A DNA stretch of 43,255 nucleotides from Candidatus Stygibacter australis (GTDB lineage Bacteria > Cloacimonadota > Cloacimonadia > Cloacimonadales > TCS61). Both the position numbers and the translations under genes were made by a program. Each line of letters starts with the position of its first letter. The stretch's first letter is position 1. The notes under the pieces were generated by a model, which was given only the letters and a program-made list of their open reading frames with translations, did not search any database and had not been told where the DNA came from. Shown piece after piece: positions 19,401 to 36,983 of the stretch. The stretch lies in NCBI GenBank assembly GCA_030765845.1, contig JAVCDJ010000059.1, positions 1-43,255 on the forward strand, given 5' to 3'.

Positions 19401-22400
19401 ACCAATTCCAGCAAAGCACCTGATATTCCCAGTCCCTGATTACTGATCACCTGACCATTCACATAAGCTTCTACTGGTGTAAGATTAATATCCACATTCT
19501 CCAGTCCTTCTCCGGGTGCTACTGTCACGAAAACTGTATCTGCCGGCATGCACACAAAATTCGTTTTCTCTGCCCATAATTTATAACTCCCATGCAATAA
19601 ACTGAAACTATATTCTCCATGCTGATCAGAAATTTCCATATTAGTTATTAATACACCATTCTGCTTCTCGGCATATACATTTGCTGCTGCTATATTGATC
19701 CCCTCATGATGGATTCTTCCATTAATCACACTCGCATTGGGATAAAGGATAAAATTTATGTTTTCCAAAACTTCATCAGGGGCTAATGAAAGCTGATAGC
19801 TCCTGTTGGTAGTATAACCCTCGCGATAGGCAGTCAGTTCATAAGTTCCCGGATACACGATCAGTTCAAATTCTCCATTCTCATCAGTATAAGTTTCATT
19901 ATCTCCTGCTCTTATCCGCACAGCTTCCAGCCGGTCTCCTTCACTATCTACTCTTCCTCTGATGATTGCATCATTGGGTAATAATACAAAATCAAGATTA
20001 TCAAGAGTTTCACCGGTGTTTAAGGTTACTTGATAGGTTGTCTGATTTGTATAATGGGTCTTATATGCTCCAATGTAATATGTTCCTGCAACCAGGTTCA
20101 GTTGATAATCCCCGTACTCATTTGTAATCGTTTCCACGGCATCACCCATAGCTGGCACAGCGGTTATCGTTACCATTTTAAGTCCCACCAGACCGTTTCT
20201 GGCAGTTCCAATTATCATACTCGATGGCTGTAATATCAGATCAATAATATTCGTCATCTGGGGAGAAGCAGTAGAAATAATAACACTTCCTTCATTTATT
20301 GGAGTATAACCTGCCTTTTCAGTTAATATTCGATAGCTGCCATAATTTAAACCACTGAACTGGTAATATCCATTTGCATCAGTGATACTTCGCACAAAAC
20401 TTTCATCCGTTTCTGCTGTTATCAGACATCGCATCAAAGTAAGTCCACTGCTGTTATACACATAACCCTGAACGGATTTAGTGCTTTCTGTCATTTGAAT
20501 ATCTTCTAATTGCAGATTCTCTCCTGCCTCAATAATTACCTCGATATTATTCGTTTCAATCCAGCCATTTTTTTCAGCCCAAATACTCCATTCACCTGAT
20601 GTTACTGATAATAGATAAGTCCCATTGATGGAAGTTATCTCACGTCTTTCTCCCTCATCACTTTCTGCTTTTATTATCACATTATTTAAATTATATCCTG
20701 CCAGACCAGTGACTCTTCCATAAAAACAGGAGGGAGAATATTCCAGAATCACTGTCACATCCGTAAATTCTCCTTCGTTGATTGTGAACACTGTATCAGC
20801 CGGCTCATAGCCATCTTTACTCACTTCCAGAATATATTCACCTTCCGGAATTATTTTTGTCTCATTACCACCTGCATTTACTGCCAGTGGAAAATTATCT
20901 GATGAACCCTCAATGGGATCTAGTTCTGCAGTAGCAAACGATACTCCACTCCCATAATTATCTCTTACGTGCAGGTTCAGTGTTCCCACTGCAATATCAT
21001 AGCTGAAATTCTCTGATGCACTCACAGAACTGATCTCTGTGGAACTGGTGGCGTACACCTTCCAATTATAATCTGCTGCTATCAGGATAGAAGATGCATT
21101 CATATCTATATCTGTATTTGTGGTTACCTGATCCCATACCAGGTAATTGCCAATATTGCTACCCTCTTGTCGTATCTCAAATACCTGTACCTGGTAATAC
21201 ATTGCCTCTGCTACATCTGACCAGTTAAAATTGATCTCACTGCTGGAGAGCATTGTTCCATTAACGGGTGAAATTAATTCAGGAGACTCTATGGTTTCAT
21301 CGGAACTGAAATAAAAAGAAAATGGATTACCGGCTACCCTTGAAGTGAATAGGGGATCGTTGTCATAGGTATTTGCCACTATCCAGTTATATTCCTGTCC
21401 AGGGATCAAAGGTGGAGCATTATCACTGAAAAATCCTGATGGATCGGGCATACCATACATTATTGACGTATCATAAGTGATCACCTGCCAGACAGTCTCT
21501 ATTCCCGTTATTATTGTTTCGCCATTTTCATCATGCTCAATTATAAAAGGAGTATCTGATATACCAAGTATATAGTAAGGTACTCCAGGATTAACCTGCC
21601 ACTGAAATATCGGCAATGGGTCTGAAATTGTTCCTCCATTAGGCGGATAGATCATCTGTGGAGCTGTGGAACTCTCCACTATCAATGGAAACTCTATTGA
21701 TAAATAATTAAACTCAGGATTATGTAATACCCCACGGTAAACACCAACCCCTAACCCCAGTTCTGCTGGACTGGTCAACAGAATATCTTCTCCCCATATT
21801 CCACTTGCATCGTAATTGGAAAGTATCTCTCCACCTGGTGAAGAGCTGGTATATAGCTGATTATATAATCCCGCTGGTCCCCAGATAATCTCTATGGTCT
21901 CATCAGATTTATATAATCCAGCTGGTAATTGACTGATCTCAATATAGCTGGAATATCGGGCATAATAGCTCAAATGGGATGGATACCCCTCATATTCCTC
22001 ACCGCAAGTGAAATAGGCATCATCTCCATAACTCCAGCATATAGCCTCTCCCTGGGGTTCTAGCTCATAATTCACTTGAACACCTGACTCTGAAAACAAT
22101 TCCTCAACTGACATTCCCGGTTCTATTTCCCAGAAATATACCCTATCATAAGTTTTTAATAATAATTCCAACCCGCTGCTTGAAAGATCACCCCCTGTTA
22201 TACCATAACCCTGATATAGATCTAAAGACAACTCACTGACCTCTTCCAACAGGTTCACATTGATCAGATCCTGCGGATATTCTGCTTTGAAAATAATATC
22301 AGTATCACCACTAAATGGATTAGCAGGATTGCGTTTTGTAACCACATATATGTCATTACTCTGATTATCAATAAACACCGTCTCAGCATCGTAATTCGCC

Positions 22401-22861
22401 CCGTCAGGATAAACCACAGCAATGACTTCGATATCTTCTGCGGAGATATAATAATCTCCTGGTATTTGCTGAGCATCCACCTCAGGTTCTTTTATCCTGT
22501 AGATATATTTTTCCGGATAGATCCCTGAATTATCACCTACATCTGCCAGATAAAGATATGAGTCTCCGGTTAATGGTCCTGACCCGCTGGCAATATCTTC
22601 CACATCCCTGAAATCTATACCTTCCAGATAGTATTTCCCCAGATGTTCGCCATATACACTAAGGGCATAGATCGCAGTCTCACCTCCAGAATCATTATGA
22701 GTCCACAGCACTTCAGCATCCCAGCCAGATACTGCCAGTCCTGATGCCTCACTGATCTCATCATTCTGCAGCATCCCTCTATCAATCCTGGGACCAAAGG
22801 ATATCCCATACAAAAGACTTGATATTGTCACAAAAATAAGTATTATCAGCTTCAGCTTCAT
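13424..22861 (-). CDS. Giant (3145 aa) surface protein with about 22 carboxypeptidase-regulatory-like repeats
   Basis: Very large exported protein. Residues 1-19 are a signal peptide. Residues about 20-300 look like a beta-propeller (SEASGLAVS, LWTHNDSGG, LYLADVGDN). About 300-620 holds fibronectin-III-like segments (PPNGGTISDPLPIFQW, SPVNGTMLSSSEINFNW). From about 625 to 2600 run some 22 Ig-like repeats of about 85 residues of the carboxypeptidase D regulatory type, each with a pattern like ISGRV...L.GV.VTA...T...G.Y....PGTY...A.K.GY. A further beta region leads to a FlgD-like C-terminal domain (LLPNPFTPNDVI near 3035, ARVYNMTGELVREI, NGRYLIHLIAED, SIVLIK) that resembles sorting domains. A G9 run encodes Gly1325-1327. 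The start overlaps the upstream stop as ATGA. Likely an adhesin or fibre-like stalk; ligand unknown. Confidence 0.9.
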   Translation of the reverse strand: MKLKLIILIFVTISSLLYGISFGPRIDRGMLQNDEISEASGLAVSGWDAEVLWTHNDSGGETAIYALSVYGEHLGKYYLEGIDFRDVEDIASGSGPLTGDSYLYLADVGDNSGIYPEKYIYRIKEPEVDAQQIPGDYYISAEDIEVIAVVYPDGANYDAETVFIDNQSNDIYVVTKRNPANPFSGDTDIIFKAEYPQDLINVNLLEEVSELSLDLYQGYGITGGDLSSSGLELLLKTYDRVYFWEIEPGMSVEELFSESGVQVNYELEPQGEAICWSYGDDAYFTCGEEYEGYPSHLSYYARYSSYIEISQLPAGLYKSDETIEIIWGPAGLYNQLYTSSSPGGEILSNYDASGIWGEDILLTSPAELGLGVGVYRGVLHNPEFNYLSIEFPLIVESSTAPQMIYPPNGGTISDPLPIFQWQVNPGVPYYILGISDTPFIIEHDENGETIITGIETVWQVITYDTSIMYGMPDPSGFFSDNAPPLIPGQEYNWIVANTYDNDPLFTSRVAGNPFSFYFSSDETIESPELISPVNGTMLSSSEINFNWSDVAEAMYYQVQVFEIRQEGSNIGNYLVWDQVTTNTDIDMNASSILIAADYNWKVYATSSTEISSVSASENFSYDIAVGTLNLHVRDNYGSGVSFATAELDPIEGSSDNFPLAVNAGGNETKIIPEGEYILEVSKDGYEPADTVFTINEGEFTDVTVILEYSPSCFYGRVTGLAGYNLNNVIIKAESDEGERREITSINGTYLLSVTSGEWSIWAEKNGWIETNNIEVIIEAGENLQLEDIQMTESTKSVQGYVYNSSGLTLMRCLITAETDESFVRSITDANGYYQFSGLNYGSYRILTEKAGYTPINEGSVIISTASPQMTNIIDLILQPSSMIIGTARNGLVGLKMVTITAVPAMGDAVETITNEYGDYQLNLVAGTYYIGAYKTHYTNQTTYQVTLNTGETLDNLDFVLLPNDAIIRGRVDSEGDRLEAVRIRAGDNETYTDENGEFELIVYPGTYELTAYREGYTTNRSYQLSLAPDEVLENINFILYPNASVINGRIHHEGINIAAANVYAEKQNGVLITNMEISDQHGEYSFSLLHGSYKLWAEKTNFVCMPADTVFVTVAPGEGLENVDINLTPVEAYVNGQVISNQGLGISGALLELVSGDIYYNSISGNYGNFSVTVEPGNDYLVMASKAGYSSGSGQTGILEIGEEVELEIMLQQMPSTISGRVYNQNGISLQGVNVTAEGDDVYSTETSLNGSWLISIFAGTYLVTAAKPGYIEDSMEITLVPGTQLDSLDFYLEENFAILEGYVIGQNTGEPLSEVLITANYNNGGGNSGYSNIYGYYRLENLLPGLYESIIYSREGYYSHIEANTLLPGSYTTNIDVLLEPYEAAIRSIVRYQGEGLGGVTVAAENLVNGEVVYDVTNESGVSLITDLASLQPYEVSVNLENYTSSDTLVYPVPGDTLELNFDLIRVDGLIYGFVRDQENNVVVGANVIATSDDGYEENCFTSANGAYILEDMPVDRYYQIEVLKQGYSQYEIVNIYLTPEPYNLDLIIYEHNYQITGILVDQVGYELPGIQVNCQSQITGVQTQSSADGSFVLEPLAPFSIYNCWTIASENGYENISWQSEIFNSDLDLGEVVIPVHISIISGIITDIDTGEPVAGALINVNEIIGGQTSGAVSQSDGSYRIRYLYEGIYTLQAQKPSYASVEIDSIYLGHREEIQLDFEMEFTQPLIVSGNVRDTDNRPMSAILIDIVGSDISMATTSDSTGSFTFDQVIPHSEVIVTTDMNPLEYDNYWVELIITNEDITGILLEMDVHNANLSGQVTDGFNSLGSVEINLISADTTFTDITIGNGYYNFDKLYEGQYELSAYRPGYELFAENIQINDNDELIENIIIEQLAGTISGVVRSGEEAGLKNAVVTARHDIEIIARDTTYASGAFQLDSLPAGWLYEISVTKTGFIDYIYPDSVAVDSLMLEIVLSEWQNSLSGTVFLDENEIADARVVIRDQAMEISDTQTDEFGDYMFSNINGYRDVWAEYGEEYTSISFGVNIPAGGSERFFPELIDAASISGLTLYQGEPKPGVSVTATNLNSGRWSRDITEQDGLYELTGLPSGSYTVSYYCEGYTFSNLPGIITLDAGEDIVLSPVNMTFLQNSISGIVQREGTRIGISGAEVVLTDSLHNILEEITTGPDGTFFFSPLADGLYYVQASHPAYLPIDEIEIILSDGGSEPPTADFNMLPKELNIFGYVYTDGGIPVYGAEVEIERIDEIFSRGRERSKLAHWRTFTDTTDISGYYEVQVDTIGFWQVSVNCEGYYSSQPVIIELNWEDLFYQQNFYLQPIIYYADICGSVRIWDEDWQSPESCEIRLQSDSGIDSLLQLISPDSTWCFEDLIIPETFSLEVTAEYNETIFVERRENIQINSPQVWTEYFTFTYIPERYTWSGYIYMQDEEQIPLPDAFLLLESSSGDSLVITTGSSGYYNFSNLPEGEYRLSIVVEYGEELFSDTTPWIYITQNYHYSHIFQYILSEVGFYIRQHENLPLPATQVRISSEDIQINLSTNSFGYCTTGSVLHTGEYSIRITSPANLSELHISLVQQTIILDSLGFYQQEYVLSLWQDNTDYATSYQYDVEIPVYLYKLPEFEGSSVLYFRSVNDNLRELIMYSDIDRFYQTIPAQQAAGELEFWFRAIDSNTGIIYTNSAETTLITISSAGIPALEYSSITPQHPILPYNAEIDLSLLIKDDLGNIMNDEIESEGEVEWILDNPEMGNLIYDESAPLQAHFEAYWLEVFEINSKIRAEIDYQGFHLNLETDLTTGNYQIANLQITGPLEVNNSSSALYNVHIYSQTGRLLNLPWSYQSLEAYAGELLKDQDNIIYIPSESFLGRVILGISVEDPGTGIEYDQEFPLVVYDVINSSTSQGSLTTGEGCELLLYDNMLKNPQNQAKVYLLSKSVPPFEETGVEYETVSSVFEPNSDLAESAFEFLPGLQFEADDSSVIARWNSQKLRWDIINDSRSSLVHIDLLAEDYCALKSSDELGIYDLQLLPNPFTPNDVIGNNMGLQIQFRLSTPRSRYINITARVYNMTGELVREIARNEPMLKGQHDAGEVNTLYWDGYTDGGRMARNGRYLIHLIAEDSSKRRELLKSIVLIK
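18881..18889 (-). repeat. Homopolymeric G9 tract inside the giant surface-protein gene
   Basis: Nine C on the plus strand, so nine G on the coding strand, encoding three glycines in the ninth repeat (ANYNNGGGNSGYS). It is the longest G/C homopolymer I noticed in the window, in an AT-rich gene. A slip of one base would shift the frame about 1820 residues before the C-terminal domain. Confidence 0.9.
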
Positions 22862-24920: not shown

Positions 24921-24955
24921 AATAATGCCCTCTATCGGATGATAGAGGGCATTAT
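24921..24955 (-). terminator. Terminator of the Ton/PorV/cargo operon
   Basis: A 15-bp perfect stem ATAATGCCCTCTATC / GATAGAGGGCATTAT with a four-base loop, followed on the minus strand by TTATTTG. It begins about 20 bases past the stop at 24975. Confidence 0.8.
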
Positions 24956-24974
24956 CAGTATATTAATGATCAGA

Positions 24975-27146
24975 TTATTTCATCAGGATCATTTTCTTTG
25001 ATGTAGTATATTTTCCAAACTTTGTTTTGTAGAAATAAACTCCAGAAGGAACTTCTGAGCCATTATCATCAGTACCATTCCAGGTTACTGTGTTGATACC
25101 AGCTTCATAAGTTTCATTTGTCAGAGTTCTGATCTTCTGGCCTCTTACGTTGTAAACATCAATTCTTACATTACCAGCAGTTTCATTTCTGAACTGAATA
25201 GTAGTAGTAGGATTGAAAGGATTAGGATAATTTTTGATCTCTAATGGAACAGAAACAAGATCATTTTCATCAGTATCGTCACCAATACCAAAATAAATAC
25301 GCATTGCAGCATATTCAAATGTAGAGCCATTATTAAGACCATGCTGCTGGCTGTGGAATGATCCATAATCATTATCATCGAGGAAGAATAAATGAAGAAT
25401 ACCATATCCATCACCATCATCTTCAATTCTGTCACCAGGATAAGCAAAGCAGGGGATCATACCATCAAGTTCTTCAACATAAGTTTCACTGTTTACATTA
25501 GCATTCATAAAGATAGGATCACTCCATGTAGCACCCCAGTCATTGGAAACACATATAGCCATTTCTGGTTTTGCTACCCAGTCTTCGTAACCTTCCCATC
25601 CTTCATTAGCAGCTTTTGCCATCATTCCATCAACCCACATGTAAGCCATCCAGCCATTTTCTTCATTAGTAGTTAAATAATATTCATTATAATGGAAAGC
25701 ACTATCTTCATCATAATGGAAAATGGGCCAGTCTTCTGCCCAAAGAGGATAATGAGGAAGACTTGGATCATCATCTGGAGTAAATTCATCAATTTCACCA
25801 TCTTCATCCAGATCCCATGGTAATACGGGATTACTATCTGCAGGATTAGCACCCTGAGGATAAACATCAGCCTGAGTGAATTCTTCATTAACAAGATCAA
25901 AGGTGAAAGTTTTTGGATAGATCATGAATCTCAGTGGCCAGTAGTAACCTGGACCTGAACCGCTGTCAAAAGTAAGACCCATAGCACCAGCCCAGGTAAC
26001 AGCTGTATTACCATGAGTGGGAACCAGGTTAAAATGTCCAGTATGGATTATATCTTGATTTACAGAGGGATATGTATATGTGGGTGGATCTGTAGGATAT
26101 CCGGCAACGTTGTCTTCAAATAGATGCCATGTAATACCGTTCCATTCCCAGGAAGGATTCTCAACATCATATACCCAATCCTCATAATATTCCTGCCAGT
26201 TATCACCTTCACCATAATTATCATTGATAAAGCAGAACATCTTATCCTGCTGGTCAGGAGCAGCATCTCCAGCGACTCTGTAACCCATAAAGATAAGCTG
26301 GTTATCTATAACGCAGAAAGATTTGAAAGGACGATACCAGTACGGATCACCAGAATTCCAGGTATCCAGAACTGGAATTGTATTGTAGTTCCAATCCAGA
26401 TCACTTTGTGCACTTAAATCTAATTCATCAAAATCAGCATACATGATCATTACATTTTCTGAAGGATTAGCTTCTGTGCCATCCGCAGTCTGATGGTTGC
26501 TGGCAACGCAATAAATTCTCTGCTTGCCTGCTACTGGTGAAGGGCCAATAGCCAATTGGGGCCAGATAAATTCATCATCTACTGTAGGATCAAGATCATC
26601 TTGAACGTCAGAATCAAGAACTGTGATCACTGGATCTTTCCAGAGACCATGTCCCTGAATGATATGATAAAGGTCATAGATTGCAATACAATCATAAGTG
26701 TCAGTACCATCATCAAGAGCATAATGCCAGGTTCCGAATACATCTCCAGTTTCCTGATGTACTACTGCATCAGCATAGTAACCTGGGCTACCAATACCCT
26801 GAGAAGCTTGAACTACTCCCATATTATCAATGTAACTGTAACTGATCTCGCTGTTTCCAGCTTGATCTTTCACACGATACATGATATAAACGCCACCACC
26901 GTGATCTTCTGGTTGAAGAGCAATCGGAGTCTGGTTATAGCACTGGAAGTAATCTGCATAATTAGTTAACAGATCCTGTGGTGTTACCGACCATTCCCAT
27001 TCAGGAACGTCACGTGAAATAGTTTTTCGAGCAGGTGCAGATACTGAGCGATCTGGTGTAAACTTGTCCGTTTTCACCGGCATCAATTCTGCCCATAAGC
27101 TTACTACAAAAATAATAAGTAAACTGATTAATAATACTTTCTTCAT
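24975..27146 (-). CDS. T9SS-type secreted cargo, paralogue of the 705-residue protein
   Basis: Exported 723-residue protein. The signal peptide is MKKVLLISLLIIFVVSLWA. The body aligns along its length with the protein at 2869-4986, including HGGGVYIMYRVKDQAGNSE, the GPSPVAGKQRIY segment and FFLDDNDYGSFHS. It has an Asp-box (CVSNDWGATWSDPIF, near 530-545) and an acidic DLDEDGEIDE loop near 440. The C-terminus from NYPNPFNPTTTI near 638 (VRIDVYNVRGQKIR, SGVYFYKTKFGKYTTSKKMI) is a type A sorting domain. It is the last gene of the TonB-dependent receptor operon, 18 bases after the PorV-like gene, with TTAGGAGG before the ATG. Probable surface-attached binding or sensing protein; substrate unknown. 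Confidence 0.9.
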   Translation of the reverse strand: MKKVLLISLLIIFVVSLWAELMPVKTDKFTPDRSVSAPARKTISRDVPEWEWSVTPQDLLTNYADYFQCYNQTPIALQPEDHGGGVYIMYRVKDQAGNSEISYSYIDNMGVVQASQGIGSPGYYADAVVHQETGDVFGTWHYALDDGTDTYDCIAIYDLYHIIQGHGLWKDPVITVLDSDVQDDLDPTVDDEFIWPQLAIGPSPVAGKQRIYCVASNHQTADGTEANPSENVMIMYADFDELDLSAQSDLDWNYNTIPVLDTWNSGDPYWYRPFKSFCVIDNQLIFMGYRVAGDAAPDQQDKMFCFINDNYGEGDNWQEYYEDWVYDVENPSWEWNGITWHLFEDNVAGYPTDPPTYTYPSVNQDIIHTGHFNLVPTHGNTAVTWAGAMGLTFDSGSGPGYYWPLRFMIYPKTFTFDLVNEEFTQADVYPQGANPADSNPVLPWDLDEDGEIDEFTPDDDPSLPHYPLWAEDWPIFHYDEDSAFHYNEYYLTTNEENGWMAYMWVDGMMAKAANEGWEGYEDWVAKPEMAICVSNDWGATWSDPIFMNANVNSETYVEELDGMIPCFAYPGDRIEDDGDGYGILHLFFLDDNDYGSFHSQQHGLNNGSTFEYAAMRIYFGIGDDTDENDLVSVPLEIKNYPNPFNPTTTIQFRNETAGNVRIDVYNVRGQKIRTLTNETYEAGINTVTWNGTDDNGSEVPSGVYFYKTKFGKYTTSKKMILMK

Positions 27147-27164
27147 TTGTCCTCCTAAGATAAA

Positions 27165-28214
27165 TTAATATAACAATTTTATAGTGAAACGCTGTGGCGT
27201 TTCGATAAATGATTCGGTCAAATCTCCGAAATCAGAATATGAGTAATCGAGCATAATGATGAATGAACTGGTGGGAATGATGAATCCCATTCCACAACTG
27301 AAACCGGCAGCATCATATTCAAACTGATATCCACTTCTCAGGAAGAATTTCCCGATTTTATATTCAGCTCCAAGATTATAAGTTTCCTGGCGGTCAACAT
27401 AACTATCTAACTGCAAAGAAGCAAGCAGATATGAACTTTCATCCGGATTGCGGAAAACATCACCAGCAATAGCTAAAGAAAAATTCATTGGTAATTTGAA
27501 AGGCATCTCATCTCTATCTTCATCGATTAAGCCATCACCGTCATTATCCAGCAGGTCAAAAACGTCCTCGTCATATTGACCATCACCATCTTCATCGACG
27601 TCAAATTCCATGTCCGGTCCAAAATTCCTCATAGCCATACCAATAGTAATATTATTCCAACCAGTATTATAAAGAGTTCCCAGATCAAAGGCAAAAGAGC
27701 CCCAATCATATAAACCAGTGGCAACATATTCATCAAGTTCTTCTCTGATATATTTTACTGTAAAACCAAAAGAAAACTTATCTGTGAACTGGTTAGCATA
27801 GGAAAGTCCTGCTGCCAGATCATAGCAATTAAACATTTCGCCAGTAGGTCCAAATTGCTCCTCAGTAGTCACTTCCATTTCTGGCATGTGCAAATATGAC
27901 ATACTAAATGCCAGAACACCAAAATCATAGTAACGGGAAGCGGCAAAATATTCATGCTGAATGTCTGCTACCCATTCGGTGTGAGAATAGAATACCTGAT
28001 TTTGTGTGCTCAATGCAAGTCCTGCAGGATTCCAGTAAACTGATGAGATGTCATTAGTTACGGCAGTATAGGCCTCTCCCATTCCAATAGCACGAGCATC
28101 AATTCCTAATTTCAGGAATTGAACTCCCGCAGTTGCAGATTTTGGGAAAATATCCGCTGCCAGGAGCAGGGGTAATAATACTACCAATGTGATTATTAAT
28201 AATTTCTTTTTCAT
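27165..28214 (-). CDS. PorV-like outer-membrane protein with an acidic calcium-loop insert
   Basis: Exported 349-residue protein with signal peptide MKKKLLIITLVVLLPLLLAA. The N-terminal mature part, FLKLGIDARAIGMGEAYTAV followed by SSVYWNPAGLA, is the classic PorV/UPF0164 signature. Strong beta strands continue to the C-terminal RFTIKLLY. Unlike ordinary PorV, residues about 204-240 hold two acidic DxDxDG-type loops (DVDEDGDGQYDED and DNDGDGLIDEDRDE) that resemble thrombospondin type 3 or EF-hand calcium loops, probably in an extracellular loop. The gene lies between the 1024-residue surface protein and the T9SS cargo, so a dedicated carrier or docking role for these is plausible. Confidence 0.87.
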   Translation of the reverse strand: MKKKLLIITLVVLLPLLLAADIFPKSATAGVQFLKLGIDARAIGMGEAYTAVTNDISSVYWNPAGLALSTQNQVFYSHTEWVADIQHEYFAASRYYDFGVLAFSMSYLHMPEMEVTTEEQFGPTGEMFNCYDLAAGLSYANQFTDKFSFGFTVKYIREELDEYVATGLYDWGSFAFDLGTLYNTGWNNITIGMAMRNFGPDMEFDVDEDGDGQYDEDVFDLLDNDGDGLIDEDRDEMPFKLPMNFSLAIAGDVFRNPDESSYLLASLQLDSYVDRQETYNLGAEYKIGKFFLRSGYQFEYDAAGFSCGMGFIIPTSSFIIMLDYSYSDFGDLTESFIETPQRFTIKLLY

Positions 28215-28224
28215 GATTCACCCC

Positions 28225-31200
28225 CTACTTTATTATGACAAACTTGCCGACTTTCTTATCGCCGGAATCTTTGTCTTTTACTGAGAATAGATAAACACCT
28301 GGGGCAATGATCTGATTATGCCTTGATAAAAGATTCCAGGCATGAATTCCACCAGCAGCCTGAGCTTCATTAGCAGCTTTGGATACTGTCAGGATATCTT
28401 CGTAATTCTCGTTACCATTATGCTCCAATTGATCAACCAGGTCTCCTGCCAGAGTCCATATCTTGATCGTGCATCTTTCTGGAAGATTAACAAACCATAA
28501 CCTGCGACTCTTATCACCTTTATTATCTGTATCATACTTGCCATCAAACTTGCTGAAACCTATATAAGGATTCGGTACTACATAAATATTATCCATAGCA
28601 CTATTAGAAGCGGGTCCAGGGAAGAATATCTTCATGTTTGCATCAGCATCTCTGGCAGATTCCAGTACAGGTATATCCAATGAAGGCATACCTCTATCCC
28701 AGGATGATACTGCCACGTAATATTCAATGCCTTTGGGTGGATGATTGATAGTTTCAGTATAATAACGACGGGCAAGTCTATCTTTTCGCAGCTTTGCGAT
28801 TTTTACTTCATCATCTATATTTGATTGACCAAGGTGATTTGAGATTGGAATTAACCTGTCATCATAGAGTTCAAGATATACATCGTCACTGACATCAGGA
28901 TGTTTAAATAATAATGCCTGATCATTAAATGATTTGCCTACTGCCTCAGTAGCTGCTGTTGCTGCATCCATCTGATAATTATACAAAGGTGCACCATAAA
29001 CAGTTATACCATCATTAAAATCATCTATGGTATAAGGAATAAGGTCATATAGCTCATTAAAATGATAATAACTTGTATCTGCTTCAGTAATTTGATGAGC
29101 ATCAGGGAGTCCTTTATCAATACCCAGGTCTCCACCAAAATCCAGGAAAAATTCAGTACTATAATTTACCATATAGTCTTCATAATCCTGATCAGTTTCA
29201 AACTTATCCCAGCGTCCTTTCTGCATCCAGTATTCCTGAGAACCACTTCCTGATCTTCCCCAGAGTGAATAGCCCTGGAAATCATGACGAAGCCTGTAAC
29301 CTGTCCAGGGATTCAGATAGGCATTAATATTGCGATTTGCTTCTATATCTGTATAAGCTTCCAGGTCTTCATCCCAAACATAAGGAGCAAATTCATGAGG
29401 ACAATCTTCTCTAAATTGAGGATCATTTTCCCAGACGGTCATATAGCTATTAAGAGTTGAGAGTGTATCTTCTACCTGCCAGCCAATCTGCTGAATTTTA
29501 ATTGTTTTTGTATCTATATTATCAATTTCAGAGCGGTTATCCCAATATACATTAATTGAATTTCCGGTCTCTGATAATTCACCAAACATCATAGGAATCT
29601 CTGGTGGTTCCGGCGGAATATAATGAATAAATGTATCTGGTTGAGTAACAGTTATCAAATCCTGTGCCTGTCCATAAGTATCCTTGGCATGAATTGATGT
29701 CTGCATCAGATCAAGTCGGGAATCTCCAGGAAATACTGCCACAACAATCTTCATTGTTTTACCAGGTGCCAGATTCCAGCGTTTGTAGTAGTTTCCTTCA
29801 TCATCTGTCTCATTATATTCAGGAGTATCTGGCAGAGCACCATAAAATCCAAACAAATAACGTGTATCCAATCCACCAGATGCTTCCTGAGCATTGGGCT
29901 GATCTCTTAGAGAAGTATATTTATCATCATTAGGGTTTATATTAGTTAATAACCAGTATTTCTCATTTGCTGTTGTAGTAGGATTAATATCTAAAGGATC
30001 TGAATCATCAGGGCCATCACCAACATCCCATGTCCAGCAGGCAAATTCCAGAATATCAGGATCAGGAGTACAAACTCTTGAACCGATCAAACCGGTTGTA
30101 AGACCATTATCACCATCAAAATCTTTGGTGTAGGCAAATTCATATCCAGGTCCAGCCACGTAGGAACTGTAATCATCAGAATGCACATTATCCCAGGCTT
30201 GAGGTCCCACATCAGAATCCATATAAACACCCATGGCACAATCAAATAATGTATCCTCATAGGTACTGGTAAAATTCATATTAGTAATATCAAATTCCAC
30301 ATAAACCAGATTTTTTATATGTTCATAACTCCACTGGTAACTAAGCTGTCTTACTCTTACTTTCAGTGGAAAATGATCAGATGAACCCTTGCTGTCTCCC
30401 CAGTCACGTTCAGTAGATGTACCAAAAGGACTATAGTCATAATAATAGGCAATAAAATCCTGCTCTGATACCGGATATCCATCTTCATCAAGTAAGCCAT
30501 CGCCATCATCATCATGTGCTTTTGTAAAGCAGAATACATCATTACTGGGATCCTGAGAAAGATCAACAAAACCCAGTGGGAACCAGATTTCTTCATTATT
30601 TATTACTGGTCCAAACTCTATAGGATTCAATTCGTGAAGATACATTCCTCCGTAACCTGAAAAGGCAATTGGTAATTCATCAGCAACTCTAAATGGGAAA
30701 GCAAAGCCAACGGGATCTTCATCAATCCGTCCATCACCATCATCATCTTCACCACGACGCTGCTTTCTGATTGAAGTGGTCGCTACAACGTCTTCACTGT
30801 TATAATCATTATACATCTGCCCCAATGGAGAAGTTTCCAGCGGATTATATGCCGGTAGAAATTCCTTTAGATCAAGGTCTCCATCAAAACCTACTGTCAC
30901 TAAAGTATCAATTACCAGTTCCAGATCCTCTGTCCATTCATCAGAACCTTCAGGGATTACGTCATTTTCATCTTCAGGATCTTCTGCCCAATACAGCTTC
31001 TGTCCCAAACCGTTTCGTCTAATTTTCTTTGCTCCAAACCATAGTGCTCCACGATAGAGATAATCTATGCCGCTACCACCCGGATACTCGAGTGAAGGCC
31101 ACTCAGGGGTGATGTCTCCACCAGAACCAAAAAAACCATAGTTACTGATACGTAACCAGATATTTCCAACATTGTGGTAACGGACAAGATCGAGCTTCTT

Positions 31201-31299
31201 TCCAGAAGCAGGTTCTACCAGGGCTTTGGCATATAATACGCCAAAAGCTATTAGCAAAATGAGGCAAATTACAAATATCCTGGTTCTCAGTAAATTCAT
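28225..31299 (-). CDS. Large (1024 aa) exported protein with calcium loops and a C-terminal PNPY-type domain
   Basis: I choose the ATG at 31299, which follows GGAGGAAAG, over the in-frame ATG at 31314. The signal peptide is about MNLLRTRIFVICLILLIAFG. Residues 30-100 carry VRYHNVGNIWLRISNYGFFG, a segment I associate with long uncharacterised proteins of FCB bacteria. Two acidic loops (EDDDGDGRIDEDPVG near 181-195 and DDDGDGLLDEDG near 260) look like calcium sites. The end, VVPNPYIGFSKF near 905, then IKIWTLAGDLVDQL, PGVYLFSVKD and VGKFVIIK, is a FlgD-like or sorting-type domain. It follows tonB by 19 bases and precedes the PorV-like gene by 10. No enzyme motif is recognised; it is probably an extracellular partner of the receptor complex. 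Confidence 0.8.
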   Translation of the reverse strand: MNLLRTRIFVICLILLIAFGVLYAKALVEPASGKKLDLVRYHNVGNIWLRISNYGFFGSGGDITPEWPSLEYPGGSGIDYLYRGALWFGAKKIRRNGLGQKLYWAEDPEDENDVIPEGSDEWTEDLELVIDTLVTVGFDGDLDLKEFLPAYNPLETSPLGQMYNDYNSEDVVATTSIRKQRRGEDDDGDGRIDEDPVGFAFPFRVADELPIAFSGYGGMYLHELNPIEFGPVINNEEIWFPLGFVDLSQDPSNDVFCFTKAHDDDGDGLLDEDGYPVSEQDFIAYYYDYSPFGTSTERDWGDSKGSSDHFPLKVRVRQLSYQWSYEHIKNLVYVEFDITNMNFTSTYEDTLFDCAMGVYMDSDVGPQAWDNVHSDDYSSYVAGPGYEFAYTKDFDGDNGLTTGLIGSRVCTPDPDILEFACWTWDVGDGPDDSDPLDINPTTTANEKYWLLTNINPNDDKYTSLRDQPNAQEASGGLDTRYLFGFYGALPDTPEYNETDDEGNYYKRWNLAPGKTMKIVVAVFPGDSRLDLMQTSIHAKDTYGQAQDLITVTQPDTFIHYIPPEPPEIPMMFGELSETGNSINVYWDNRSEIDNIDTKTIKIQQIGWQVEDTLSTLNSYMTVWENDPQFREDCPHEFAPYVWDEDLEAYTDIEANRNINAYLNPWTGYRLRHDFQGYSLWGRSGSGSQEYWMQKGRWDKFETDQDYEDYMVNYSTEFFLDFGGDLGIDKGLPDAHQITEADTSYYHFNELYDLIPYTIDDFNDGITVYGAPLYNYQMDAATAATEAVGKSFNDQALLFKHPDVSDDVYLELYDDRLIPISNHLGQSNIDDEVKIAKLRKDRLARRYYTETINHPPKGIEYYVAVSSWDRGMPSLDIPVLESARDADANMKIFFPGPASNSAMDNIYVVPNPYIGFSKFDGKYDTDNKGDKSRRLWFVNLPERCTIKIWTLAGDLVDQLEHNGNENYEDILTVSKAANEAQAAGGIHAWNLLSRHNQIIAPGVYLFSVKDKDSGDKKVGKFVIIK

Positions 31300-31318
31300 A
31301 TATCTTTCCTCCATTGTC

Positions 31319-31966
31319 TTAATTTTCTAAATAGAAGTTCACGGGAAATGTTACCCAGACAGCAATGGCTTTACCATTCGTCTTTGCTGGTTCAAATTCC
31401 AGTTGACGTGCATATTCAATAGCAGCTTCATCCAGACCGCCTGGTCCGGGTAAAACTGATTTTTTTACATCTATTGCCCCAATTTTACCGCTACGGAGCA
31501 CTTCCAGTTCCAATATTACTGTACCCTGGATATTTGCTTCTTTGGCAAATTTGGGATATCTCAGTGGCGCTTCATTCAACTTTTTGGGGGGTTCATCGTA
31601 ATATATGAATTCTTTAGGTGTAGTATTCCAGCCATCAGGTTTTGCGATCTCTTCATACGGATCTAAAGTTGTCTTATCTATAGTATCCAGTTCCATCAAT
31701 TCATCATCATCATCATCATCTGATAATTGATCATCGATCACGATCTGGATCTGTGGTTTAATTTGTGTCTCCGGTGGTTTGATCTTCTCTTTGATCTCTG
31801 GTGGGATCTCAATAGCTTCAGTAGTTTTCACCTCTGCTTTATATGCTTTGATTTCAATATTTGGTGATACCAGAAAGGCAAATAAAATTAATAATATAGC
31901 TAAACTGAAAGCTTTGTCATAGTAGCTGTTGGCTACGTCTTTCCAATCCTGATATTTTCTTTCCAT
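31319..31966 (-). CDS. tonB: TonB-family energy transducer
   Basis: Inner-membrane protein of 215 residues that carries proton-motive energy from ExbB/ExbD to the outer-membrane receptor. A short cytoplasmic start is followed by one transmembrane helix (about 19-36, FSLAILLILFAFLVSP). The periplasmic linker is Pro/Lys/Glu-rich (IPPEIKEKIKPPETQIKPQI) with a run of six aspartates encoded by a GAT trinucleotide repeat. The C-terminal TonB domain (about 125-215) has the RYPKFAKEANIQGTVILELEV core and EYARQLEFEPAKTNGKAIAVWVTFPVNF. It begins five bases after exbD, fixing its place in the motor operon. Confidence 0.95.
   Translation of the reverse strand: MERKYQDWKDVANSYYDKAFSLAILLILFAFLVSPNIEIKAYKAEVKTTEAIEIPPEIKEKIKPPETQIKPQIQIVIDDQLSDDDDDDELMELDTIDKTTLDPYEEIAKPDGWNTTPKEFIYYDEPPKKLNEAPLRYPKFAKEANIQGTVILELEVLRSGKIGAIDVKKSVLPGPGGLDEAAIEYARQLEFEPAKTNGKAIAVWVTFPVNFYLEN
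31701..31720 (-). repeat. GAT trinucleotide repeat in the tonB linker
   Basis: Six full TCA units on the plus strand (GAT on the coding strand) encode the poly-Asp run. Gain or loss of units would change linker length without a frameshift. Confidence 0.85.
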
Positions 31967-31971
31967 ATCCG

Positions 31972-32379
31972 TTACCTCTTCAGTTTAGCTTCAAATTGTA
32001 CCCGCAGAGCATTCGCATCCTTGAGTTGATTTAATATATCTGACATGATACCGTAGTTTGTATCTTTATCTGTCCGGAAACAGGTTATGGTATTGATATC
32101 TTCTGCCAGTTTCTGCTGCATTATCACACTCACCTGGGGAATTTCCACAGCATAATCATCAATCGTAATAGTTCCCGTGCGGTTCACATAGATAGTAGTA
32201 GCATGTTTGCGAGGAATCTTTTGGATTTCTTTTGCTTTTGGCAGGATCACATCTAAACCTTTCTCTTTTACAAATACCGTACTTACCATAAAAAATAACA
32301 GCAAGAGAAATGAGATATCTCCCATGGATGTTGTAGGTATCTGTGTCTCAGGTTTTGCATTACGTCTAACTTTTGCCAT
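31972..32379 (-). CDS. exbD: ExbD/TolR-family motor subunit, second copy
   Basis: Inner-membrane protein of 135 residues: short basic N-terminus (MAKVRRNAKPETQIPTTS), one transmembrane helix with the proton-conducting Asp (MGDISFLLLLFFMVSTVF, Asp at about 21), and a periplasmic domain (IYVNRTGTITIDDYAV, then CFRTDKDTNYGIMSDILNQL). It differs enough from the neighbouring copy to be a distinct subunit. In FCB bacteria two ExbD genes commonly follow one exbB. Nine bases separate it from the upstream exbD. Confidence 0.95.
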   Translation of the reverse strand: MAKVRRNAKPETQIPTTSMGDISFLLLLFFMVSTVFVKEKGLDVILPKAKEIQKIPRKHATTIYVNRTGTITIDDYAVEIPQVSVIMQQKLAEDINTITCFRTDKDTNYGIMSDILNQLKDANALRVQFEAKLKR

Positions 32380-32388
32380 AATACCTTC

Positions 32389-32796
32389 CTAGTTAGTGGA
32401 TAACGAGATTTTTTCTGCTCCCGCTGCCTGTAAAAGGTCAAGAACCCTTACCATGTAATCATAATTGCTTTTTCTATCAGTTTTTAAAGAGATAACCATA
32501 TCAGGGTTACCCTTTACTTTATTCCGAATTACTTTCTCAAGGTCTTCCAGAGGGACTTCTTCTTCGTTTACAGCTACCAGTCCGTCTTTATTGATCCAGA
32601 CCTTGGTGAGATTTTCATCTTTGATCTTTGCCTTTTGCTGGGTCGGATCGCTCGCTGGAGGTAACACCAGACCTAATCCCTTTTTGATATCAAAGGTAGT
32701 GGTTGATAAGAAGAAAACCAGAAGCAGGAATGATATATCAGACGTAGATGTTGTCGGAATACCACCCAGATTCTTTCTTTTCCTGCCTAATTTCAT
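32389..32796 (-). CDS. exbD: ExbD/TolR-family motor subunit, first copy
   Basis: Also 135 residues, with the same plan: MKLGRKRKNLGGIPTTSTSD, helix DISFLLLVFFLSTTTFD carrying the conserved Asp at about 20, then a periplasmic domain (LTKVWINKDGLVAVNEEEVP, VISLKTDRKSNYDYMVRVLDLL). It would pair with ExbB as proton-driven rotor or stator with TonB. It lies 14 bases after exbB. Confidence 0.95.
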   Translation of the reverse strand: MKLGRKRKNLGGIPTTSTSDISFLLLVFFLSTTTFDIKKGLGLVLPPASDPTQQKAKIKDENLTKVWINKDGLVAVNEEEVPLEDLEKVIRNKVKGNPDMVISLKTDRKSNYDYMVRVLDLLQAAGAEKISLSTN

Positions 32797-32810
32797 CTTT
32801 GCACCCCCTG

Positions 32811-33617
32811 TTAATTCTCAATCAGGGTTTCCACAACCTTCTCTGAACCTCTCTGCATATCAAGAACTATACCATCTACATTACCAAGAAGTAGATTATT
32901 AAAAAACTGTACAGGGATTGCCACTGCCAATCCGGCAGCAGAAGTAATCAAAGCTACATTAATACCACTTGCCACAATAGTAGGATCCACTTCACCAGCT
33001 TTGGCAATAGCATCAAATGCCTGGATCATGCCCACAAGAGTTCCAAAGAATCCCAGCATCGGTGCCAGATTAATAACTGTGGACATTGGTACAAAACCCT
33101 TTTCCAGAAATGCCATCTCGATGGTTCCTGCGCTTTCCATAGCCTTTTCAACAGCATCCACTCCGCGATCTGCTTTCAATAGACCTGCATGGATTATAGC
33201 TGCTACTGGTCCCTTGGTTTTAGCGCACACATTTGCTGCATCCTGGTACTTTTTTTCCTTAAGTAAAGGTATAATTTTATCAAATAAGGCATTAATATTG
33301 ATTCTGGCATATGATAAGGCAATAATCTTATATATTATAACTGCTATTGCCCATATAAGAAGAACCAGAATCGGCCACATGGCGAATCCACCATCAAGGA
33401 ACAGATCTACAAATCCGCTTCCAACCAGACTTCTGGCAAATGCTTCAAATCCACCTACCTGGGGAGATTCATCAAACATCATCTCCTCATTTGCTGCTGA
33501 TGTAGTTTCTGTTATTCCTGTTGCATTATTCTCTACATCCTGGGCATAAAGACTCACTCCGAAAAGTAATGTTAAGATTGTTACCATCATGAAGAGATTC
33601 AAAAACCTTTTCTTCAT
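32811..33617 (-). CDS. exbB: ExbB/TolQ/MotA-family proton channel with signal-like N-terminus
   Basis: Inner-membrane proton channel subunit of 268 residues. An N-terminal hydrophobic segment resembling a cleavable signal (MKKRFLNLFMMVTILTLLFG...YAQ), typical of ExbB in Bacteroidetes-type bacteria, precedes a Glu/Asn-rich linker. The MotA_TolQ_ExbB core follows: helix around 80-98 (MWPILVLLIWAIAVIIYKII), then two C-terminal helices with LAPMLGFFGTLVGMIQAF and ALITSAAGLAVAIPVQFF that line the channel. It follows the receptor gene by 29 bases, with TTTAGGAGG before the ATG. Confidence 0.96.
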   Translation of the reverse strand: MKKRFLNLFMMVTILTLLFGVSLYAQDVENNATGITETTSAANEEMMFDESPQVGGFEAFARSLVGSGFVDLFLDGGFAMWPILVLLIWAIAVIIYKIIALSYARININALFDKIIPLLKEKKYQDAANVCAKTKGPVAAIIHAGLLKADRGVDAVEKAMESAGTIEMAFLEKGFVPMSTVINLAPMLGFFGTLVGMIQAFDAIAKAGEVDPTIVASGINVALITSAAGLAVAIPVQFFNNLLLGNVDGIVLDMQRGSEKVVETLIEN

Positions 33618-33646
33618 TATATCCTCCTAAATATTATTCTCTTTTT

Positions 33647-36600
33647 TTACCAGTTAAAGGTGAAACCAATACTATATGTTCTGCCTTCGCTGGCTCTTGA
33701 CGGGTCATCTATGCCCATCTGATGAATTAGATATGTCTCTTCTGAAACATAGTCACCATTATCATCTATATAACCATCACCATTAGGATTTGGTTCATAT
33801 AATCCGTCATCATTCGGTCTGCCAGTTCTTGGAAATACACCATAATAATTAATCTTATCGAACAGGTTACTGATCGTTAGGTAAAACTTGACTGATGATT
33901 TTTTACTAAAAGAAAATTTCTTGTAAATTGTCAAATTTGCATTTGATGTATAAGGCTTATTTGAACTATTGATATCATCAGAAGTATCTTCATCATTTAC
34001 GCCTGTATATGGTGATCCGGAAGCAATATTATAGAGGAAATTCATTGAGAAATCATCAAATGGTACACGTACATTAATAAAAGGCAGATAGAATTCCTCA
34101 TCATTTTGAATCCTGAATCCCATATTGAAATTGAAATTGTGTCGTGTATCCCAATCCAGTGGAAATTCGCGAAGATTAGTAGTCTCATCCTGAACTACAG
34201 TACTGGAATTGTTTCCATTTGCCCATGATAATGAGTACGAAGCTGATCCCGAAATGAAATTAGATAATTGCTTGCTCAAATTAAGATCAATCCCTTTTGC
34301 AGAGCCGTAATCCTCTGAATAATATTCGTACCAGTAAACTGTCTCATCGCCTTCCTTTTCTACTTTACGTGTACTTACATAATTATATATATTTTTGTAA
34401 TAAGCTGTTAAATCCATCATTATATCTTCTGTCAACTGCTGTTGTAATCCCACCTCGTATGTTACTGTGATCTGTGGTTCCAGTGAAGGATTACCAACTA
34501 CTACATTGGAATCACTTGTATAGGCATCAGTGGAATCCACTGTAGTAAATATATACTGCATCTGAGGTAATTGATTTTGATAATTATAAGCAAAATGCAG
34601 CACTGAACCCTCAACAATTGGGTGAGATACGCCAAGACGTGGAGAAACCATCATCTGGAATTTCTCATCATTGTCAAAGTCACGTTCGCGATATGATCCA
34701 TCTTCCTTTAATATCTCATAGCTTTCACCCAGATACCAGAAATCTAACCGGACTCCGGCATTTACTATCATACCTTCCCATTCCATCTTGTCCTGAAGAT
34801 AATAAGCTGCCTGCCAGGGATCTGCCCTGTAACCATCAGTAGTTCCCGATGCAGCAACTATTGCATCAAAATTATCCTGTTGTGAATAAAAATCAGTATC
34901 TTCTGATAATTCCAGATCCATTATCCCATCACCATTTGTATCCAAACTGTCACCAGCATCATAATGCTCTATTGCAATACGACTTGCCAGATATTCATCA
35001 TAGCGATATGGGTCTATTATCCAGGGATTATACAACCTGTCTTTTTCAATATGATGTTTGATCAATTCAAAACCTGATTTAAAACCATGAATTGTATTAA
35101 CCTGATACTCAAAATCAGTTCTTAAAGTCATTTGCTCACTGGAATCATCCTGATAAGTTCCATAAATGGCTCCAGGAGTTACAAATGAGCCTACCGGGTA
35201 TTCATTACCATCACTAAAGTACTGCCAGTTATATACTTCTCCTTCTCCTATTACACCATTACCGTTCTCATCCAGAAAATATATTCCGCTGGTATTACGA
35301 CCATTGGAATCCATATAATAAATATCCCATTCTGAACTATCCATCATTGTATAATAATCATCTCTATCAATATCCTTAGGCTGAAGAGTATAGCTCTTTT
35401 GGTAATATGATCCCTTTATTTTTAAATTCATTTGTGAATTGAACATGTGATCATAGGTGACAATATACTGGTTCTGCAACTGTTCATACTCCAGATAATG
35501 CTCAAGTGCATATCTCCAGGCATGACTGTATGGAGTACTGTTGCTGGTATCCCCACGCATGGCAAAAGTAATATTCTGACGAGGATTTAACTGGTATTTA
35601 ACCTTTAAATTTGCATTATAGTAATTATAATTTCGCTCATCTAAAACAATATCATCAAAATCCATTAACCAGTTTTCATCATGGTATGGATTATAACTGG
35701 ACCATTCACCACTAAGGTTTGGTATATCATCGTTAGGGTCAGTGGAATAATAATCTCTGTATCTACCATCAGTAAATTTAATTGCACCGTTTAAGAAAAA
35801 GGTTAAATCGTTTCGAAGGTTGGGTCCCAGGTCACCTAGTACAGGTCCACCAAGGGCAAATTTTAATTCATCTTCATTAGAAGGATTGTCAAAATTCAGT
35901 TTTTCAGACAACAGATCAAAAGTTAATTCTTTCAAACCTAATAAATGATCAGTATTAATTTCCAGCTTACCACTGTAATTCTCTCCACCACTCTTGGTTA
36001 CGATATTTACAATTCCAGACTGAGCATTACCGTATTCAGCGGTAAATCCACCAGTCATCACGCTCATATCTGCAATTGCATCCTGATCTAAAGTCAAGGC
36101 AGAACCTCCATCAACTGGATCTGAGACGCTCATCCCATCTACAGTATAAACTACCTCATTCGCTCTACCACCACGAACGTGAAGCTCTCCACCGGTATTT
36201 ACAGCACCTGCCTGGATCGCTACGATATCTTCAATACTCTCTGCAGCTATTTCTTCGATTGTATCCGAAGTTACTGTTGATGAAGAACCAGAGCGATCTC
36301 TTTTCACTCCCTGATTCTTTGCTTCAATAATCGTTACACCTTCCAGAGCTAATGCATCTTTGCTCAATGTGAAATTCAAGGTCGTTGTCTCATCGATTCC
36401 GATCTTAACTCCTTCAACCAATTGAGTACCAAAACCCATTGAAAGGCATTTTACATTATAAGTCCCGGGAGGTATGTTTATGATTATATATTGACCGTTG
36501 TCTTTTGCTGCTGCGCCAATCTGCGTACCCTCCAGAATAATATTTGCCGGTGCTGGTCTACCTTGTTCGTCTCGCACCTTTCCTGCTAATTGTCCTGTAG

Positions 36601-36670
36601 TTCCCGCATTTAACATCAGACCGATGAAAACAGTGAATATAAATATAAACAATATCTTCTTCTTCATCAA
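33647..36670 (-). CDS. TonB-dependent outer-membrane receptor with carboxypeptidase-regulatory-like N-domain
   Basis: Outer-membrane transporter of 1007 residues. A signal peptide (about 1-22) is followed by a CarboxypepD_reg-like Ig domain (about 25-100: GQLAGKVRDEQGRPAPANII, PGTYNVKCLSMGFGTQ). The plug domain (about 120-230) has the segments VAIQAGAVNTGGELHVRGGR, VVYTVDGMSVSDP and GNAQSGIVNIVTKSGG. The remainder is a 22-strand-type barrel rich in aromatic strands, ending RTYSIGFTFNW with the terminal aromatic expected for BAM insertion. There is no SusD-like partner next to it, so it is not a standard Bacteroidetes Sus pair. It heads the operon with the Ton motor. The substrate is unknown. 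The 103-base gap upstream has a minus-strand TTGACA (36733-36728) but no good -10. Confidence 0.93.
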   Translation of the reverse strand: MMKKKILFIFIFTVFIGLMLNAGTTGQLAGKVRDEQGRPAPANIILEGTQIGAAAKDNGQYIIINIPPGTYNVKCLSMGFGTQLVEGVKIGIDETTTLNFTLSKDALALEGVTIIEAKNQGVKRDRSGSSSTVTSDTIEEIAAESIEDIVAIQAGAVNTGGELHVRGGRANEVVYTVDGMSVSDPVDGGSALTLDQDAIADMSVMTGGFTAEYGNAQSGIVNIVTKSGGENYSGKLEINTDHLLGLKELTFDLLSEKLNFDNPSNEDELKFALGGPVLGDLGPNLRNDLTFFLNGAIKFTDGRYRDYYSTDPNDDIPNLSGEWSSYNPYHDENWLMDFDDIVLDERNYNYYNANLKVKYQLNPRQNITFAMRGDTSNSTPYSHAWRYALEHYLEYEQLQNQYIVTYDHMFNSQMNLKIKGSYYQKSYTLQPKDIDRDDYYTMMDSSEWDIYYMDSNGRNTSGIYFLDENGNGVIGEGEVYNWQYFSDGNEYPVGSFVTPGAIYGTYQDDSSEQMTLRTDFEYQVNTIHGFKSGFELIKHHIEKDRLYNPWIIDPYRYDEYLASRIAIEHYDAGDSLDTNGDGIMDLELSEDTDFYSQQDNFDAIVAASGTTDGYRADPWQAAYYLQDKMEWEGMIVNAGVRLDFWYLGESYEILKEDGSYRERDFDNDEKFQMMVSPRLGVSHPIVEGSVLHFAYNYQNQLPQMQYIFTTVDSTDAYTSDSNVVVGNPSLEPQITVTYEVGLQQQLTEDIMMDLTAYYKNIYNYVSTRKVEKEGDETVYWYEYYSEDYGSAKGIDLNLSKQLSNFISGSASYSLSWANGNNSSTVVQDETTNLREFPLDWDTRHNFNFNMGFRIQNDEEFYLPFINVRVPFDDFSMNFLYNIASGSPYTGVNDEDTSDDINSSNKPYTSNANLTIYKKFSFSKKSSVKFYLTISNLFDKINYYGVFPRTGRPNDDGLYEPNPNGDGYIDDNGDYVSEETYLIHQMGIDDPSRASEGRTYSIGFTFNW

Positions 36671-36773: not shown

Positions 36774-36983
36774 TTATTCTTTTTGTTGTTCTTGACTCTC
36801 GGTTTGAATTGTATTTCGCCAGTACTCACCAAAATTTCTGCCATTTGGACTGATTATAAAACGAATTAATAATATTAGAAGGATAAAAATCGCCAGCTTG
36901 AATAATAAACCACCCCAGGTTGATGCTCGCTTACTGCGTCGTTCTGCCTTTCTTCGCTCTATTTCTTCCCGAAATACTTTCAT
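36774..36983 (-). CDS. Small single-helix membrane protein
   Basis: A 69-residue protein with a basic N-terminus (MKVFREEIERRKAERRSKRA), one transmembrane helix (about 26-45, LLFKLAIFILLILLIRFIIS) and a polar tail ending ESQEQQKE. No family is recognised. Its ATG overlaps the stop of the aminotransferase gene by one base (TAATG), so coupled translation supports its being real. It may be a small membrane partner of unknown role. Confidence 0.65.
   Translation of the reverse strand: MKVFREEIERRKAERRSKRASTWGGLLFKLAIFILLILLIRFIISPNGRNFGEYWRNTIQTESQEQQKE

Follow-up and report, generated by a model that had tools for sequence, protein, structure and literature searches.

A conserved seven-gene block in Cloacimonadota joins a TonB-dependent receptor and Ton motor genes to a predicted T9SS cargo and a PorV-like barrel

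A block of seven genes, encoding a TonB-dependent receptor (TBDR), ExbB, two ExbD proteins, TonB, an exported protein of 1024 residues (P1024) and a PorV-like outer-membrane barrel, is conserved as a unit in the phylum Cloacimonadota in the order TBDR-exbB-exbD-exbD-tonB-P1024-porV. On balance, the encoded proteins are taken to form a SusCD-like, Ton-powered uptake receptor, the surface partner of which would be exported by the T9SS with its own PorV shuttle and would not be a lipoprotein. The finding points to a TonB-dependent receptor unit with a T9SS-displayed surface partner across a whole, largely uncultivated phylum. If this is true, two machines usually studied apart become linked, and a handle on the feeding of Cloacimonadota is obtained.

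The window analyzed is a whole contig of 43,255 nucleotides (JAVCDJ010000059.1; G000:C59) from a 3.8-Mb Cloacimonadota MAG. Eight open reading frames (TBDR, exbB, exbD, exbD, tonB, P1024, porV and a cargo gene) extend along the minus strand from 36667 to 24975, and all window coordinates given below refer to features of that strand. The successive gaps are 29, 14, 9, 5, 4 or 19, 10 and 18 bases, the fifth depending on whether P1024 starts at ATG 31314 (1029 aa) or at ATG 31299 (1024 aa). The receptor start is ATG 36667, preceded by the Shine-Dalgarno sequence AGGGGGA; the listed TTG 36670 lies one codon upstream. Downstream of the last gene is an intrinsic terminator (24921–24956) with a 16-bp stem followed by a T-rich tail. 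Other terminator-like matches on the minus strand inside the cluster were weak 5–7-bp stems within coding sequence, and no second convincing terminator was found there. The first-pass annotation had described eight genes running in one direction with gaps of 5–29 bases and a single strong terminator at the end, all of which were found again. Upstream of the receptor, a 69-aa small protein with a single membrane span (36774–36983) begins at the aminotransferase stop codon, and many relatives have similar small proteins encoded between aminotransferase and receptor.

The receptor (33647–36667; 1006 aa) has a SusC/Oar-type layout, with a signal peptide, a CarboxypepD_reg-like N-terminal domain (36329–36589, limits approximate; PF13620, 1.2e-12; PF13715, 4.5e-11), the TonB-box-like segment EGVTIIEA, a Plug domain and a barrel. 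It is followed by ExbB (32811–33617; 268 aa; PF01618, MotA_ExbB, 2.2e-27), two ExbD proteins of 135 aa each (32389–32796, PF02472, 2.4e-25; 31972–32379, PF02472, 3.8e-20) and TonB (31319–31966; 215 aa), which matches the TonB_C family. The motor is therefore complete by homology, including a TonB with its C-terminal domain. The last gene (24975–27146), which is not a constant part of the locus, encodes a T9SS-type cargo protein with a weak sialidase-like match and an FlgD_ig/Por_Secre_tail C terminus. Family scans of the eight proteins gave no match to SusD, in keeping with the earlier statement that a SusD-like protein is absent.

P1024 was present in 114 of 125 genomes of the phylum (67 of the 71 good ones), and its distribution extends to families outside the order. 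Scanning of named genome records with a P1024 alignment yielded 80 loci, all belonging to Cloacimonadota/Cloacimonetes or genera thereof except for three labeled Armatimonadota/Armatimonadetes, which are apparently genomes of the same family. In 57 of these loci, P1024 is preceded by TonB and followed by PorV, and a further 14 had one correct flank with the other lying past the contig edge; the remainder were mostly paralogs, contig ends or failures of ORF picking. Full-length P1024 relatives were ∼50–85% identical, median gaps within the seven-gene block were 7–24 bases, and the same gene order was found in the loci fetched from families f1–f13. Mean pairwise identities were 57% for P1024, 60% for PorV, 50% for the receptor and 63% for the linked aminotransferase. 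Given that the order is kept across the phylum, the arrangement is far beyond chance, and this synteny rules out chance neighbors or an assembly artifact. A pre-set test asked whether the motor is regularly found apart from the three downstream genes; within the phylum it is not. The eight-gene unit originally proposed stood in seven of its genes, which are deeply conserved and include no SusD-like gene, but not in the eighth, the T9SS cargo gene being missing or swapped in several families. The scan of all GTDB genomes relied on two strict peptide patterns and may have overlooked distant relatives in other phyla. No P1024 was found in viral contigs.

Frequent upstream neighbors of the block are glyS, pta and the aminotransferase gene aspAT, together, in relatives, with kinase-like, PurM-like and lipoate-ligase-like genes that were named by eye from their translations. 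Second copies of P1024, 67–72% identical and without a Ton motor, were observed at G000:C162:4698-7790 (L044), G001:C32 (L058) and G015:C32 (L059); PorV and cargo genes adjoin the copy in G015, and no PorV gene adjoins those in G000 and G001. Shorter P1024-like proteins of ∼680–800 aa at G000:C22 (L045) and similar loci match mainly residues 255–545 of P1024, which suggests that this segment may be a separable central module.

The cluster had been suggested to be a dedicated machine, and the relation of its motor to the other receptors of the cell was assessed by family counts. All 40 genomes scanned had a TonB_C match. The closed genome G048, with three Plug proteins (receptors), contains a single such match, which is the operon TonB. 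In the genome under study there are six Plug matches, and the operon TonB scored 64.6 bits compared with 39.3 and 35.4 bits for two partial matches near other ExbB/ExbD genes. With the operon TonB as the principal or sole TonB and with several receptors per genome, the motor is probably shared by all TonB-dependent receptors in a cell. A dedicated motor is not supported by these counts, nor by a related receptor–giant protein–PorV triad in Rhodothermus (see below), which has no linked motor. Another set of ExbB-ExbD-ExbD genes, with a gene for a 312–465-aa protein after it, occurs at L197, L198 and L196 (G009:C151, G018:C39 and G042:C4) and is possibly an additional envelope motor; at L198, this protein matches TonB_C weakly and a 1422-aa TPR protein adjoins the cluster.

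P1024 (28225–31299) is kept phylum-wide as an exported protein with a hydrophobic signal sequence. A lipobox-like site was absent from all 36 orthologs, no ortholog matched any Pfam family, SusD included, and a profile of P1024 found no relative among PDB sequences. The last 126 residues (899–1024; 28228–28605) resemble a T9SS C-terminal domain; in 34 of the 36 orthologs, they match PorZ in its C-terminal part. This match is confined to that region, scoring 28 bits against the PorZ equivalog NF052228 (cut-off 260), and P1024 did not match the plain type-A T9SS C-terminal models TIGR04183/PF18962. Foldseek searches with a mediocre structure model (pLDDT 69) placed PorZ and PorU among the best matches and neither SusD nor BtuG among the top ones; matches to glycoside-hydrolase or phosphorylase domains had low TM-scores and were set aside as a weak hint only. 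Every ortholog contains one to four calcium-type DxDxDG motifs, of which P1024 itself has a first at residues 185–198 (30706–30747) and a second at residues 263–276 (30472–30513). From these features, export of P1024 by the T9SS is predicted, and the protein is the best candidate for a surface partner of the receptor. The earlier proposal that the exported proteins capture substrate can be retained to this extent for P1024; the cargo protein is not a fixed component of the unit.

The barrel encoded next to P1024 (27165–28214; 349 aa) scored 206 bits against the PorV/PorQ family model NF033709 (cut-off 90) and 92 bits against the PorV equivalog NF033710, below the cut-off of 250. In Foldseek comparisons, PorV (TM 0.67) was a better match than FadL (0.5) or BamG (0.47). 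The AlphaFold model has 14 strands, and two DxDxDG motifs (27507–27608) are inserted between strands 7 and 8. Given that seven of the 14 strands come after the insert, strand parity would place it outside the cell. Of 22 orthologs, 20 had two such motifs, one had three and one had none; no such motif occurred in the six closest paralogs of the barrel in this genome. The PorV family is expanded here, with 15 matching stretches, and several of its genes adjoin genes with T9SS-type C-terminal domains. The PorV-like barrel probably delivers P1024. Elsewhere in the window, a 3145-aa giant protein (13424–22861) with ∼18 CarboxypepD_reg repeats and an FlgD_ig C-terminal domain is followed after 9 bases by a 313-aa PorQ-like barrel (12473–13414), another pair of giant cargo and barrel; the giant protein was considered as SprA and rejected on account of its repeats.

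The same features allow another reading: P1024 and the PorV-like barrel could constitute a complex for surface assembly or attachment, resembling PorZ-PorQ or BamH-BamG, and the receptor or Ton motor would help to build the outer surface instead of importing a nutrient. The resemblance of the P1024 C-terminal domain to the attachment-complex proteins PorZ and PorU is consistent with such a role, as are the housekeeping-like conservation of P1024 and PorV and the frequent position of the block beside the core genes glyS, pta, aspAT and a purM-like gene. The BamGH plan, a FadL-type barrel plus a big surface protein (PMC12611786, PMC12578637), is also comparable. Nevertheless, the barrel fits PorV better than BamG, P1024 is not a lipoprotein, PorZ is matched in the C-terminal domain only, and both the receptor and its correlation with P1024 (described below) are left unexplained. 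A surface-assembly complex is considered unlikely.

A search of plasmids with P1024 (tblastn) returned one record, Rhodothermus marinus pRMAR01, with the match in the C-terminal domain; it was through this plasmid collection that Rhodothermus was found. The region encodes a TonB-dependent receptor, a hypothetical protein of 1132 aa and a PorV/PorQ family protein; in strain DSM 4252, the receptor is RMAR_RS14120 and its two partners are RMAR_RS14115 and RMAR_RS14110. A separate receptor search of plasmids gave the same pRMAR01 receptor as the best match. In profile comparisons with the operon proteins, the receptors aligned over 857 columns (E 2.4e-84), the PorV proteins were 32% identical, and P1024 aligned with the 1132-aa protein over the last 107 columns only (46% identity, E 1.2e-21). 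The rest of the 1132-aa protein appears P1024-like by eye only, the alignment giving no support. Given that three pRMAR01 genes are related to operon genes, the receptor–giant protein–PorV triad reaches another phylum, as judged by these sequence comparisons.

Exploratory analyses of distance correlations used 16–22 genomes. With the aminotransferase as species control, 22 genomes gave the groups {receptor, P1024, PorV} and {ExbB, ExbD, ExbD, TonB}. Among 16 genomes, the correlation between TBDR and P1024 was 0.64 with AspAT, PorV and SprA controlled, and that between PorV and SprA was 0.63 with AspAT, P1024 and TBDR controlled; the correlation between P1024 and PorV fell to 0.10 with AspAT and SprA controlled. 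Hardly any correlation between the motor genes and PorV remained once the species signal and SprA were removed. These exploratory values fit P1024 as a partner of the receptor and PorV as a shuttle of the translocon. They also bear on the possibility of mere co-regulation, in which an ordinary housekeeping Ton motor and one receptor just happen to precede a T9SS cargo and shuttle to which they are linked neither physically nor functionally. Although the motor is probably general, motor and surface genes fall into separate correlation groups, and P1024 paralogs occur alone, co-regulation would not account for an order kept across the phylum, for the receptor–giant protein–PorV arrangement in another phylum, or for a TBDR-P1024 correlation that survives the controls, and we regard it as rather improbable.

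In the uptake reading that we prefer, the ExbB-ExbD-ExbD-TonB motor, assigned by homology, probably energizes every TonB-dependent receptor present. P1024 would pass through Sec and then, by virtue of its C-terminal domain, through the SprA (T9SS) translocon, a route built on the homology of SprA and of this domain. The neighboring PorV-like barrel would act as its cognate shuttle and probably stay as a surface anchor, with Ca2+ loops perhaps located at the P1024-barrel interface. P1024 would then sit on the receptor and capture or gate a substrate that the receptor imports with Ton energy. We infer this last step from the conserved linkage, the correlated divergence and the motor-less Rhodothermus triad. 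The existence of P1024 paralogs without an adjoining motor or receptor counts against this model, as do the P1024-PorV correlation of 0.10, the mediocre P1024 model and the eighth gene, the cargo, which has no role in the scheme. Cloacimonadota often ferment amino acids, and oligopeptides or complex glycans are guesses at the substrate; no Rfam match to a riboswitch hinting at it was found in the window or in the loci of five relatives.

The T9SS of the phylum raises a question of its own. SprA was found in 28 of 28 good genomes and above the cut-off in 35 of 40 genomes. By contrast, GldM (two models, 0 of 30 and 0 of 40 genomes) and GldL (0 of 40) gave no match above cut-off with models presumably built on Bacteroidota, and this absence is not proven because the set included no T9SS control genome. 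Sub-threshold GldM matches were discounted: one and the same gene, conserved and HD-domain-like by eye, was present at four of five loci inspected, and the fifth carried other non-GldM genes. In Flavobacterium johnsoniae, GldLM energy pulls PorV-bound cargo out of SprA (PMC10994853), and type-B cargo proteins use cognate shuttles encoded next door (PMC12618676). The power source of the T9SS is thus in question in a phylum with SprA but no recognizable GldL/GldM. One answer would be that PorV-type shuttles receive P1024 and other cargo from SprA and that ExbBD-TonB, perhaps via the receptor in the manner of Oar-PopC, supplies the pull of GldL-GldM. The distribution of SprA and GldL/GldM, the PorV-family gene within a Ton operon and the requirement of PopC secretion in Myxococcus for a TonB-dependent transporter plus ExbBD-TonB (PMC6434023) would agree with this. 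Against it are the missing positive control for GldL/GldM, the near lack of correlation between motor genes and PorV, the other ExbB-ExbD sets in these genomes and the Rhodothermus triad without a linked motor. It is judged quite improbable that the Ton motor replaces GldL-GldM as the T9SS power source in Cloacimonadota, with the operon keeping motor, shuttle and first client together and the receptor coupling TonB to the export of cargo or the assembly of the surface, either in place of import or in addition to it.

Comparison with known systems revealed partial likenesses. SusC-SusD, RagAB and BtuB-BtuG of Bacteroidota similarly combine a Ton-driven receptor carrying CarboxypepD_reg and Plug domains with an exported surface partner encoded alongside, but P1024 is neither a lipoprotein nor SusD-like, ends in a T9SS-type domain and has a PorV-type barrel gene beside its own, and the operon here also includes the Ton motor. 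The SprB-SprF pair of F. johnsoniae (PMC12618676) shares the large exported protein with a barrel gene directly downstream, and SprA is present in the phylum; here, by contrast, the barrel is of the PorV and not the PorP/SprF family, the C-terminal domain is PorZ-like, a receptor and Ton motor are linked, and no GldL/GldM was found in 30–40 genomes. The PorQ-PorZ and PorV-PorU attachment complex of Porphyromonas gingivalis likewise pairs a PorV/PorQ-family barrel with a protein bearing a PorZ/PorU-like C-terminal domain, to which the PorZ likeness of P1024 is limited. Oar/PopC secretion in Myxococcus xanthus (PMC6434023) ties a TonB-dependent transporter and ExbBD-TonB to an exported protein; in Cloacimonadota, T9SS parts are present, and the operon receptor gives no sign of an export role. 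BamG-BamH of the Bacteroidota BAM complex (PMC12611786, PMC12578637) is a highly conserved FadL-type barrel with a large surface protein. BamH, unlike P1024, is a lipoprotein, and no linkage to bamA was seen; identity with BamG/BamH was rejected on the closer fit of the barrel to PorV and the lack of a lipobox in P1024. The ExbB-ExbD-TonB motor itself is complete and homologous, with two ExbD genes, and differs in its operon partners. No described system of such composition and no paper combining Cloacimonadota and TonB were found in the literature searched, in agreement with the first-pass annotation, which knew of no named system of this kind. The arrangement suggests an undescribed way of building an energized surface receptor.

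Two more receptors of this genome are encoded directly upstream of T9SS-type cargo genes, which is consistent with the uptake reading. A further receptor, of 637 aa, lies between an ABC ATPase gene and a CbiQ-like gene (G000:C210; L189), which suggests a possible function in cobalt or cobalamin uptake.
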